Source: a virus. From it: a stretch of 44,492 nt of DNA. The notes beneath the pieces are model-generated. The model was not told the DNA's origin and made no database searches. It saw only the letters and a list, made by a program, of their open reading frames with translations. Numbering within the stretch: the first letter of the stretch is position 1; every line of letters starts with the position of its first letter. Positions 19,741 to 44,129 of this stretch are shown here, piece after piece. The DNA lies in the IMG/VR virus record IMGVR_UViG_3300006790_000035, positions 1 through 44,492 of that record; one strand, written 5' to 3'. A program made the translations under genes and the position numbers.

Positions 19741-20002
19741 TGAAGACCCCGCAGGAGATGCCGGCACGGCGCGAGAAGCGGTACGTTCCGGTCCCGATGA
19801 TCTTCGCCGGATGGTTCGCCGTCAGGGCATCGACGCGGAAATACTCTCCGGCATCATCCTTGAGCAGGATGTCGACGAATGCCCCTTGGGCCACGCGCGG
19901 CCCGGCCACATCCTTGAGACAGACCGTCAGCTCCTCGCCGTCGCCGACAGCCACATCGAGTGAGTTGGCCGCGGTTGTCCCCACGGCGAGCACTTCAGCC
20001 AT
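19733..20002 (-). CDS. Head-region protein, possible decoration protein
   Basis: An 89-residue protein with small beta-strand repeats (GEELTVCLKDVAGPRVAQGAF broken after 20, VDILLKDDAGEYFRVDAL, AKIIGTGTYRFSRRAG). TAGGAGG precedes the ATG at 20002. The size, beta content and location two genes after the capsid are compatible with a capsid decoration or stabilising protein, but no motif proves it. Confidence 0.6.
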   Translation of the reverse strand: MAEVLAVGTTAANSLDVAVGDGEELTVCLKDVAGPRVAQGAFVDILLKDDAGEYFRVDALTANHPAKIIGTGTYRFSRRAGISCGVFSA

Positions 20003-39527: not shown

Positions 39528-39742
39528 GGGGTGACCTCTTCTGGGACTTCGAAGAAGAAGCGATCGCTCCACTCGAGCTTTCGGTCGGATGCAGCCGCGC
39601 GAATGGCAGTCATGTCCTCATTGGTGAATGGGCCGCCACTCTCCCATCTCGACACACTTGCCTGCGTGCGCCCAATAAGGGCCGCGAACTCGCTCTGCGA
39701 GAGGACAAAAAGCTTGGTACGAATGAAGCGCATCGGGTTCAT
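39524..39742 (-). CDS. Cro-like XRE-family regulator
   Basis: A 72-residue protein. Residues 8-45 are an XRE helix-turn-helix (LFVLSQSEFAALIGRTQASV then SRWESGG). It is divergent from the CI-type repressor gene, and its start codon lies inside the first operator (39741-39754), so binding there would block both transcription and translation of this gene. This is the standard place for Cro. A TATTAT (minus strand, 39757-39752) gives a nearly leaderless transcript if used. The C-terminal end (EWSDRFFFEVPEEVTP) is acidic. Confidence 0.8.
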   Translation of the reverse strand: MNPMRFIRTKLFVLSQSEFAALIGRTQASVSRWESGGPFTNEDMTAIRAAASDRKLEWSDRFFFEVPEEVTP

Positions 39743-39801
39743 ACGTCAACGTATAATACGCATGTGTATATTTGTGCAAGCACAATTATACGCCGACGTA
39801 T
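39741..39801. promoter_or_regulatory. Lytic/lysogenic switch operators O1-O3
   Basis: Three 14-bp sites lie between Cro and the repressor: ATACGTCAACGTAT (39741-39754), ATACGCATGTGTAT (39756-39769) and ATACGCCGACGTAT (39788-39801). Arms ATACG and CGTAT are nearly inverted copies. TTGTGCAAGCACAA (39772-39785) is a separate near-palindrome between O2 and O3. The divergent early promoters must overlap these sites. Confidence 0.8.
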
Positions 39802-39837
39802 TTTTCAGCCTGCGCGCGCAGTGCTACGCGGTTTGCC

Positions 39838-40500
39838 ATGAGCGAAACCGAACGTATGGTTAGGGCCATTCTGGCCAAGAGAAACTGGACCCAGGCACGC
39901 CTTGGTGAGGAGCTGGGGGTGTCGCAGCCGACCATTCAGCGGTGGCTGGGCGGCTCCGTGACGCCTGACACCAAGAATCGCGACAATCTGATCGCACTGC
40001 TAGAGGAAGATGAGGAAACCTCCCACCTGCTGCCAGCTAAGCGCAGCAGAAGTGCCGCCGCCGCCGGCGACATTCCGAATCTGACAATTCACGCAGGCTT
40101 AGGAAGCGGCGGCCTCGAACATATTGAAGTAGATCAGGACGGACGGATTACCGACCCCAACTACCTCGACGGCTACTGGAGCTTTCCGGATACCATAAGA
40201 GCCGGCATGGCTCATCTGCCCAAGACCCACGCGCTGCCTGTCAAAGGCGACAGTATGGAGCCCACCCTCCTTGGTGGGTCGGTTGTCTTTGTGGACACAA
40301 CCCACACCATGCCATCGCCGCCAGACCTCTACGCTGTCGATTACGGTGACGGTCTGATGATCAAACGGATCGAGCTGGTTCCGAGGTCTGACACCGTGAA
40401 GGTGATCTCCGACAACGAGCGTTATTCAACGTATGAGCTTTCTCGCGAGGAATTGCGAGTGTACGGGCGCGTGATCGCATCCTTCCAGTGGCGCCACTGA
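39838..40500 (+). CDS. CI/LexA-type phage repressor with S24 peptidase domain
   Basis: A 220-residue protein. Residues 8-50 are an XRE helix-turn-helix (WTQARLGEELGVSQPTIQRW). The C-terminal S24 domain has the nucleophile Ser139 in VKGDSMEPTLLGG and Lys176 in GLMIKRIEL. The likely self-cleavage point is Ala86-Gly87 in LTIHAGLGSGG, so RecA activation by DNA damage should inactivate it and induce the prophage. Operators flank the gene on both sides. I chose the ATG at 39838; the frame upstream runs through operator O3. Confidence 0.92.
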   Translation: MSETERMVRAILAKRNWTQARLGEELGVSQPTIQRWLGGSVTPDTKNRDNLIALLEEDEETSHLLPAKRSRSAAAAGDIPNLTIHAGLGSGGLEHIEVDQDGRITDPNYLDGYWSFPDTIRAGMAHLPKTHALPVKGDSMEPTLLGGSVVFVDTTHTMPSPPDLYAVDYGDGLMIKRIELVPRSDTVKVISDNERYSTYELSREELRVYGRVIASFQWRH

Positions 40501-40501
40501 A

Positions 40502-40548
40502 ATACGCAGACGTATATTCTGCTTGACGATTATACTTATGCGTATATT
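40502..40548 (+). promoter_or_regulatory. Operators O4-O5 and promoter of the integrase operon
   Basis: ATACGCAGACGTAT (40502-40515) and ATACTTATGCGTAT (40532-40545) match the switch operators. TTGACG (40523-40528), 16 bases and TATTTT (about 40545-40550) form a candidate promoter, and O5 covers its spacer. Repressor bound here should shut off the rightward operon, including integrase. Confidence 0.7.
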
Positions 40549-40579
40549 TTAGCCCCCAGTTTCCCCACTGGAGGGCGCA

Positions 40580-41029
40580 ATGCCACGCACCGAACCAACC
40601 ACCGGCGCCATGATCGCCGATCTCTCGGCCATGATGGCCGAACCGCCGCGCTCCGTCGCCGAGCGCATGGCCGATGTCTATGTCGACGATGCCGAAGCCG
40701 GACGGGTGACCACCAGGGATGACCTCAATCGCCTGGGCTTCTCCGCTGCCGAACTGGCTGAGCACGCGGCCGACGCTTCGAGCATCGCCGCGGCCCGGCT
40801 GAAAAAGCGGGAGGGCCGCGACATTGATGCCAGCCCGGTCAAGTCGCTGGCCGAAGTCGAGCGCGATATCGCCGACATCATCGTCTCCAACCTTCCCGAT
40901 ACGCAGTTCCTGCTCGCCGACTGCCAGGCGCGCGGCATTTCCAAGCAGCAGCTCGATCTGCTCTTCCACCGCGCCCGGGCCCGCGCCGCCCTCACCTTCT
41001 GCCATGCAGATCCTAAGGGAGCGCACTGA
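40580..41029 (+). CDS. First protein of the rightward operon, unknown function
   Basis: A 149-residue, largely helical protein (MIADLSAMMAEPPRSVAERM, ADVYVDDAEAGRVTTRDDLN, RLGFSAAELAEHAADASSIA, SKQQLDLLFHRARARAALTF). GGAGGG lies 6 bases before the ATG. Proteins of this pattern are common in alphaproteobacterial prophages at the start of small-gene clusters and remain hypothetical. It follows the repressor-controlled promoter, so it should be made early after induction or infection. Confidence 0.7.
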   Translation: MPRTEPTTGAMIADLSAMMAEPPRSVAERMADVYVDDAEAGRVTTRDDLNRLGFSAAELAEHAADASSIAAARLKKREGRDIDASPVKSLAEVERDIADIIVSNLPDTQFLLADCQARGISKQQLDLLFHRARARAALTFCHADPKGAH

Positions 41030-41211
41030 TGGGCACATATGCTGTCTATCTCGACCCGATTGCAGAGCGCCGCCTGCTGCGCATTGCGGGCGAGACCAAC
41101 CGCAGGATTGAGGATCTGATCGCCAGTGCGGCCGAGGAGGGAGCTCTTGGTTACTTCCGCCACCGTGCCGACGATCCCGGCCGGCCGCCGCAGCGCCGCG
41201 AGGTGGCGTGA
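41029..41211 (+). CDS. 60-residue protein, possible ribbon-helix-helix
   Basis: It reads MGTYAVYLDPIAERRLLRIA, then GETNRRIEDLIASAAEEGAL. A short beta strand followed by two helices resembles the ribbon-helix-helix fold of CopG-like DNA-binding proteins, but the match is loose. The ATG shares a base with the preceding stop (TGATG). Unknown function. Confidence 0.6.
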   Translation: MGTYAVYLDPIAERRLLRIAGETNRRIEDLIASAAEEGALGYFRHRADDPGRPPQRREVA

Positions 41212-41336
41212 TGGCTTCCCGCACCAAAAAGCGCAGCCGTTCCGGCGCCCACGCCGTCTGCCCGCACTGCAAGAAGCAGCTGCGCGGAGAAAAGGGCCTC
41301 AAGGCTCATATCGCCCAGGAGCACGCCAATGCTTGA
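41211..41336 (+). CDS. 41-residue C2H2 zinc-finger protein
   Basis: The frame runs ATG 41211 to TGA 41336 and encodes MASRTKKRSRSGAHAV, then CPHCKKQLRGEKGLKAH and IAQEHANA. Cys17, Cys20, His33 and His38 have the spacing C-X2-C-X12-H-X4-H of a classical C2H2 finger, with a basic N-terminal arm. Bacterial Ros/MucR fingers have a shorter X9 loop. It is overlapped by both neighbours, which supports expression. It could bind DNA or RNA with the basic arm. Function inferred only from the motif. Confidence 0.7.
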   Translation: MASRTKKRSRSGAHAVCPHCKKQLRGEKGLKAHIAQEHANA

Positions 41337-41424
41337 GCGCGCCGCCAACTTCCTCAATTCCGACGCCGGCCAGTTCTGCGCCGGCGTCCTGGCCCTTGCC
41401 GCACTGATGATGGGAATACGCTGA
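41329..41424 (+). CDS. 31-residue membrane peptide
   Basis: The frame encodes MLERAANFLNSDAGQFCAGV, then LALAALMMGIR. One hydrophobic segment of about 16 residues follows a polar start. It overlaps the zinc-finger gene by 8 bases (ATGCTTGA) and shares its last base with the start of the HD gene (TGATG). Its size and context suggest a real small membrane peptide. Function unknown. Confidence 0.5.
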   Translation: MLERAANFLNSDAGQFCAGVLALAALMMGIR

Positions 41425-42014
41425 TGAACGTCATGCTCCCCAGCCGCTCGCCGTTCTGGAAGGCCATGCCATCCGGGCTCGCTTTCGACTTTGTCGATCC
41501 GCGTCCGGACATGGTCAGTCTCGACGATATCGTGCACAGCCTCAGCCGCACCAATCGCTGGGGCGGCAATGTCGAGCCGGTCACCTATACCGTGGCCCAG
41601 CACAGCCTGCTCACCGCCTCCGCCTGCAAGCTGCCGCAATCCCGCGTCTATGCCCTGCTGCACGACGCGGCCGAGGCCTATATCGGGGATATCCCGACGC
41701 CTCTGAAGCTCTGGATTGCCGACGCCGGCGCCGACATCATGGCGCTGGAAAAGACCATCCTGTTCCAGGCGATCTTTCCCGCCTTCGGCCTGCCCAAGCC
41801 CAACTCGGCCATCTTCGCCGATGTGCACAATGCCGACCAGATCGCCCTGGCAACGGAATATCGCGACATCGTCAAGGGCCGCCATCCCGACTTCACGCCC
41901 AAGGCCCCGCCGCTGCCCGCGCGGGTCAGGTTCATCGCCACCCCGAAGGTGGAAGAACAATTCCGCCTCGCCCTCGAGGGCGCGCTGCGGCCGTTTGGGA
42001 AGGGGGCCGCGTGA
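41424..42014 (+). CDS. HD-domain phosphohydrolase, YfbR-like
   Basis: A 196-residue protein. The HD motif residues are His60 (YTVAQHSLL), His80-Asp81 and Glu84 (ALLHDAAEAYIGDIPTPLK) and Asp138 (NADQIAL). This is the layout of 5'-deoxynucleotidase YfbR and related phage enzymes, which release nucleosides from dNMPs. It could adjust nucleotide pools or degrade signals; the substrate is not shown by sequence. The ATG shares a base with the preceding stop. Confidence 0.85.
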   Translation: MNVMLPSRSPFWKAMPSGLAFDFVDPRPDMVSLDDIVHSLSRTNRWGGNVEPVTYTVAQHSLLTASACKLPQSRVYALLHDAAEAYIGDIPTPLKLWIADAGADIMALEKTILFQAIFPAFGLPKPNSAIFADVHNADQIALATEYRDIVKGRHPDFTPKAPPLPARVRFIATPKVEEQFRLALEGALRPFGKGAA

Positions 42015-42226
42015 TGTCAGAGAAACTTGGTTCGGACATCGCTGTTCGACGCCTTAAGGACGGCAAGTTTCTCTACGCGCGCCGAGGCGTCATGCTGGAG
42101 AGTGAGACGCCCAAGTTCATCTCGACCGTTGATCGGGCGATGATGGCAGTGCGCATCGACATGGGTCTTTCCCTATCGGATGTCGAGTTTGTCACCCGCG
42201 CAAGCCTGCGGGAGAAACGTCAATGA
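42014..42226 (+). CDS. 70-residue protein of unknown function
   Basis: It reads MSEKLGSDIAVRRLKDGKFL, then YARRGVMLESETPKFISTVD and LSLSDVEFVTRASLREKRQ. It looks like a small alpha/beta fold. The ATG at 42014 shares a base with the stop of the HD gene; a GTG at 42011 is also in frame. It overlaps the next tiny gene by ATGA. No family recognised. Confidence 0.6.
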   Translation: MSEKLGSDIAVRRLKDGKFLYARRGVMLESETPKFISTVDRAMMAVRIDMGLSLSDVEFVTRASLREKRQ

Positions 42227-42318
42227 CCGCGCTGCCTCCCGATTTCTTCTTTGGCACCCTTCTGGTCGTCGCCGGTGTCGTGGGCGCCGTCATCCAGCAT
42301 TGGAAGGGCGGGCACTGA
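42223..42318 (+). CDS. 31-residue membrane peptide
   Basis: The frame encodes MTALPPDFFFGTLLVVAGVV, then GAVIQHWKGGH. A single hydrophobic helix of about 18 residues fills most of the peptide. ATGA overlap with the gene before it, and the next gene starts 4 bases after its stop. It is the second tiny membrane peptide in this operon. Function unknown. Confidence 0.5.
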   Translation: MTALPPDFFFGTLLVVAGVVGAVIQHWKGGH

Positions 42319-42482
42319 CGCCATGCCCAGGCCCGCAACCACCAGCTCCCCCAGATTGACAGCAAAGCCACCTGCGCCGCAGCATGATGCCGCGCGGGCT
42401 GCCCTGCTCGCTTTTGTGGAGGCCTTGGCGGAACAGCAGGCCATTGAGGACCATCTGGCGGAGACCGGACAGGATGAAGTCT

Positions 42483-44129
<1,647 letters not shown>

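Follow-up and report, generated by a model that had tools for sequence, protein, structure and literature searches.

Can an open reading frame (ORF) of 41 codons that specifies a eukaryote-type C2H2 zinc finger be a genuine phage gene, and what might its product do? The question is raised by positions 41211-41336 of a virus record from IMG/VR that is 44,492 bases long, was analysed in full and is referred to here as the window.

A short ORF interlocked with its neighbours

All genes called between 40580 and 44096 are located on the plus strand and the last of them codes for a serine integrase, in line with the initial annotation, which had placed the ORF in an operon ending with integrase. The window closes with this gene, tRNA-Met and the start of an apparent bacterial gene. 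The region comprises the following features:

40580-41029 (+), first gene of the operon (orf149), 149 residues, with relatives 5' of the finger gene in five other loci
41029-41211 (+), ORF of 60 residues whose stop codon overlaps the ATG of the finger gene; only a weak RHH-antitoxin-like match (E 0.12)
41211-41336 (+), single C2H2 zinc-finger protein, 41 residues, basic (translation, homologues, dN/dS)
41329-41424 (+), hydrophobic ORF of 31 residues whose start overlaps the end of the finger gene; relatives in L003, L004 and L005 (tblastn)
41424-42014 (+), HD-domain deoxyribonucleoside 5'-monophosphate phosphatase (PHROG 318, E 1.5e-38)
42474-44096 (+), large serine integrase at the operon end (Resolvase, Recombinase, Zn_ribbon_recom; PHROG 95)
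44053-44129 (-), tRNA-Met adjoining the integrase, a possible attachment region (ARAGORN)

The first gene, orf149, is without known family and gave only a very weak capH-like match; a search with orf149 alone as query returned no match. Its relatives are located upstream of the finger gene in L212, L213, L218, L228 and L229. Given its conservation in L003, L004 and L005, the hydrophobic ORF at 41329-41424 is also likely to encode a real microprotein. A second hydrophobic ORF of 31 residues is present in the operon (42223-42318), and a strong terminator-like hairpin on the minus strand (44019-44050; 14 pairs followed by a T-rich tail) was noted between the integrase end and tRNA-Met.

The product of 41211-41336 (+), MASRTKKRSRSGAHAVCPHCKKQLRGEKGLKAHIAQEHANA, and its gene are organised as follows:

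41200-41205 (+), GAGGTG, a putative Shine-Dalgarno-like hexamer 5 nt 5' of the ATG
41211-41258 (+), basic N-terminal arm MASRTKKRSRSGAHAV, net charge +5, with a conserved K/R-S-R-S-G-A motif (alignment, column counts)
41259-41324 (+), finger Cys17-His38, with ligand codons at 41259, 41268, 41307 and 41322 (sequence, AlphaFold2)

The spacing C-X2-C-X12-H-X4-H and the Lys/Arg-rich arm, on which the initial annotation was based, can be read directly from the translation: the ligands are Cys17-X2-Cys20-X12-His33-X4-His38, and Leu24 and Leu30 take the two classical hydrophobic core positions. The predicted interlocking of start and stop with both neighbours was likewise found. The ATG (41211-41213) overlaps the TGA of the upstream ORF (41209-41211), and the ATG of the downstream ORF (41329) precedes the TGA of the finger gene (41334-41336), resulting in an overlap of 8 bases. 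A claimed length below the usual gene-length cut-off did not hold as such: common gene finders use a default minimum of 90 nt, and the ORF with its 126 nt is short but not necessarily below it.

With a product of only 41 residues, a chance ORF or a non-functional remnant in GC-rich DNA had to be considered, all the more as the looser pattern C-X2-4-C-X12-H-X3-5-H by itself has a chance expectation of 0.54 per window and is not significant. The strict motif, which adds the two core positions to the Cys/His spacing, was found once across all six frames of the window; among 150 second-order Markov windows, 0.7% contain it (mean 0.007). In 80 loci selected only for their HD phosphatase (716 kb) it was again present once, and that single occurrence is a homologue of the finger. 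A second weak match in the window (19857-19958) is without the full cysteine/histidine frame and was dismissed as chance.

Conservation of the finger family

The search for homologues in IMG/VR, a check suggested along with the initial annotation, yielded a family that numbers at least 22 with the window protein; most members are about 39-70 residues long. They share K/R-S-R-S-G-A in the arm, and G-x-K-G-L is invariant in their fingers. This invariance is partly built in, since G26, K28 and G29 were specified in later scans (in the first scan G29 was fixed while G26 and K28 were left free). The conservation of the pattern-fixed residues Pro18, Leu24, Gly29 and Leu30 is partly circular and was given no weight. 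With the family profile, members score at least 62 bits and the next other finger 34 bits.

A syntenic homologue with 72% identity and all four ligands is encoded on L005, a related contig reached via the HD phosphatase, whereas the first operon gene (orf149) shares only 34% identity between the window and L005. In L003 and L004 the slot of the finger gene is taken by other small ORFs. IMG/VR was scanned at the DNA level with the degenerate pattern CPxC-x3-L-x4-GL-x2-H-x4-H, and the many matches indicate that classical fingers are no rarity among viral contigs; among the matches listed was a group of short basic proteins sharing the arm and G-x-K-G-L. Further DNA scans of IMG/VR were run with ligands left unspecified. 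The scan without the histidines returned 14 contigs and the one without the cysteines and the second histidine 15 contigs, all of which keep the four ligands; L230 keeps them although the usual Pro is replaced by Phe. Loss of the four ligands in related phages, which according to the initial annotation would speak against the finger, was thus seen neither in L005 nor in these two scans.

In most pairs dN/dS was 0.08-0.27, indicative of purifying selection, and the other frames of the closest pairs did not show such a pattern; the window-L161 pair gave 0.72 from very few sites. These values well below 1, the homologues, the retained ligands and the operon junctions kept across loci (see below) leave a chance origin of the ORF hardly credible, and we regard it as refuted by conservation. 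As judged from sequence comparison, ORF 41211-41336 is a real, conserved phage gene.

Some members deviate in architecture or context. In the Mu-like loci L215 (7574-7933) and L222 (8389-8733) the finger is fused to a second Cys-rich stretch and to a stretch of 60 residues, respectively. The finger genes of L216, L221 and L226 specify C-terminal tails (V)GEQGPE or SEQGPE, a motif associated with tape measure proteins. Two different prophage contigs of one isolate genome (L170 and L233; UViG 2785510742) each carry their own member.

In tblastn searches of INPHARED phages and PLSDB plasmids with the finger protein or the family consensus, the only matches were generic C2H2 ones or at chance level. 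The gene is missing from the early region of four MuA-related Mu-like isolate phages (Sinorhizobium phages Aussie and StopSmel, Ochrobactrum POA1180, Microcystis Mwe-Yong1). A scan of genome contigs gave one spurious, partial match in Maribacter, and NCBIfam yielded nothing useful. Literature searches on phage C2H2 fingers, restricted to open-licence papers, brought up no account of the family. This family is new, while the classical finger as a kind is already known in phages.

Fold and helix surface

Structure prediction, also suggested at the outset, gave a beta-beta-alpha fold for the window protein (AlphaFold2; strands 14-16 and 23-25, helix 26-37, loose arm) at moderate confidence (pLDDT about 77-84 over the finger, mean 74.7, pTM 0.42). 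Structural matches were weak: the best Foldseek match was the GAGA factor/DNA complex 1yui (E 0.34, TMq 0.61), with no Foldseek E value below 0.001, and the best VIA Z was 3.3. All 19 members analysed match both PF00096 (zf-C2H2) and PF13894 (zf-C2H2_4) at E <0.1. The window protein stays below the respective gathering scores (17.3 vs 25.2 and 19.1 vs 27 bits) and is therefore not filed under these families. The classical arrangement C-X2-4-C-X12-H-X3-5-H with hydrophobic core is present in the window protein and in all aligned relatives. Sequence and model support a classical C2H2 finger by kind, with predicted zinc binding.

Helix positions -1, +2 and +3 are Gly, Lys and Gly in 21 of 21 sequences (in part a consequence of the scan patterns), and +6 is mostly Met or Ala. 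Because the reading positions are Gly/Lys/Gly/Ala, the eukaryote-type spacing does not imply eukaryote-type base reading.

Weak similarities to a C2H2 protein of 47 residues in the solved entry 6skg_Bo (E 0.049) and to the dsRNA-binding zf-C2H2_jaz fingers, together with the basic arm, would fit a protein that binds RNA or the ribosome, i.e. a translational regulator or a ribosome-associated microprotein. DNA-binding fingers (GAGA, ZFAT, CTCF) are matched at least as well, the similarities rest mostly on the Cys/His frame, and we consider such a function improbable.

Genomic setting and partners of the finger gene

The neighbourhoods of 18 relatives were compared with the window (19 loci; genes called with our own script). 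In all 19 the finger gene lies within a same-strand operon, with an upstream gap of at most 10 nt in 18 and a downstream gap of at most 3 nt in 18. Eleven loci are Mu-like, i.e. they contain the early genes DUF3164 and/or GemA, most of them with MuA or MuB. Of the eight loci that are not Mu-like, most have a repressor gene (S24 or HTH) upstream, with an integrase or genes of nucleotide metabolism in the vicinity. The finger family is common to unrelated temperate phages.

A small basic protein encoded in an operon that ends with a serine integrase could be the recombination directionality factor (excisionase) of that integrase. The relatives, however, are associated with different enzymes: serine integrases are present in the window and L214, tyrosine-type integrases in L212, L213 and L218, and Mu transposases without a serine or tyrosine integrase among the genes read in L215 and other loci. 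One factor would not serve all three, which argues against a dedicated excisionase. As a constant association with one integrase type was not found, this function is largely refuted and appears very improbable.

Repressor gene and operator-like dyads upstream of the operon

Immediately upstream of the operon the following features were identified:

39741-39801 (no strand), three dyads ATAC-N6-GTAT (39741-39754, 39756-39769, 39788-39801) upstream of the repressor gene
39838-40500 (+; scanned as 39835-40497), CI-type repressor, HTH plus peptidase S24 (Pfam PF00717, 2e-14; PHROG transcriptional repressor, 2e-30)
40502-40545 (no strand), two dyads ATAC-N6-GTAT (40502-40515, 40532-40545) just before the finger operon
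40523-40550 (+), promoter-like TTGACG-N16-TATTTT, between and over the two dyads (consensus scan)

ATAC-N6-GTAT occurs five times in the window vs 0.06 expected, and the five copies flanking the S24 repressor gene resemble immunity operators. The promoter consensus scan of the region found two sites vs 1.0 expected and is weak on its own. In matching places, repeated dyads of different sequence are present in L212 (TTTCC-N5-GGAAA), L218 (TAGC-N7-GCTA) and L214 (GTCACC-N5-GGTGAC); no clear repeat was seen in L213, L224 and L229, and a weak one in L228. The position of operator-like dyads beside the repressor gene and the operon start suggests that the finger operon is probably repressor-controlled and induced early. 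The dyads vary from phage to phage and the finger does not, so that the finger is unlikely to read phage-specific operators.

Proposed role

We tentatively favour, with not quite even confidence, an early accessory or host-takeover protein that grips double-stranded DNA via arm and finger and is not a sequence-specific regulator. The finger operon would be shut off during lysogeny and switched on soon after induction. Its product would bind zinc, and arm plus finger would hold nucleic acid, most likely double-stranded DNA, mainly via the backbone (Lys28 at +2, Arg25 before the helix, and the arm), with little base specificity and no canonical base reading. The finger would then act on a target that the hosts of these unrelated temperate phages share, and would not regulate a single phage in a sequence-specific manner.

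Protein contacts are the mode of action of many small phage proteins made early, and strict conservation of a surface is just as compatible with a partner that is protein or RNA. The finger might be a module for protein-protein contact, namely a peptide produced early against the host or its defences that binds a conserved host enzyme (for example RNA polymerase, a nuclease or a nucleoid protein). The Gly/Lys/Gly reading head, mostly followed by Met or Ala, has little base-reading capacity; the surface is constant across heteroimmune, Mu-like and integrase-type phages; and the gene has an early-operon position. The strongly basic arm and a family pI of 9.5-11.4 (net charge +4 to +12) fit nucleic acid better, however, and the finger has no match in PADLOC, which covers defence systems, not counter-defence. 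On balance we judge such a module somewhat unlikely.

A broader proposal, which we hold to be rather unlikely as a whole, is that eukaryote-type single-finger microproteins of heteroimmune integrase and Mu-like phages are early host-takeover factors sharing one conserved host target. If true, the host-takeover role would be a function of classical C2H2 fingers that the open-licence papers searched do not describe in bacteria. Classical C2H2 fingers make up about 0.003% of bacterial proteins in a survey (PMC3541406); a conserved, operon-embedded family in temperate phages means that such fingers are kept under selection by phages. With most members of about 39-70 residues, which are easy targets for NMR as well as for zinc- and DNA-binding assays, the action of a lone finger without the normal base-reading residues is directly testable.

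Comparison with known finger proteins

Ros/MucR proteins are, like the phage protein, small and have a zinc finger; they are regulators typical of Alphaproteobacteria and have C-X2-C-X9-H spacing (profile PF05443). The X9 spacing is absent from the window protein, which shows X12 and has no Ros/MucR Pfam match at E up to 1; an identity with Ros/MucR was rejected, and the eukaryote-type spacing named in the initial annotation was confirmed. The Ros fold is larger (beta-beta-beta-alpha-alpha; PMC7663847).

Other classical fingers of phages and haloviruses (L102, L118, L163; PHROG 35915, labelled zinc-finger domain protein in PHROGs) likewise have C-X2-C-X12-H-X4-H in viral genes. They differ from the present family in being without the SRSGA arm and G-x-K-G-L, in scoring at most 34 vs at least 62 bits, and in often being part of larger proteins.

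AFV1p06 (ORF59a; PDB 2LVH) of the archaeal virus AFV1 binds double-stranded DNA in vitro at micromolar concentration and is a tested precedent for a small viral single-finger protein with this activity; a regulatory role has been proposed for it, and its type of finger is absent from bacteria according to phylogeny (PMC3541406). Both it and the phage finger are small viral proteins with one classical finger plus extensions and Lys at helix +2. The fourth ligand of AFV1p06 is Glu and its reading positions are T/K/Q/L, whereas the phage family has C2H2 intact and G/K/G/A; the C2H-Glu ligand set is not that of the window protein. The phage family is further distinguished by its fixed SRSGA arm and its occurrence in bacterial phages, with no detectable sequence relation beyond the finger.

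The Drosophila GAGA factor (PF09237, 1yui) shares with the phage protein a single C2H2 finger and a basic N-terminal arm. Its profile matches six of 19 members (best E 5.6e-05), and the window protein scores 16.5 vs a cut-off of 20.2. The GAGA factor reads bases with helix residues; the phage family has G(-1), K(+2), G(+3) and A/M(+6) in place of these side chains. By analogy, our best guess is that the phage finger would make a GAGA- or AFV1p06-like grip on DNA, or contact a common host target.
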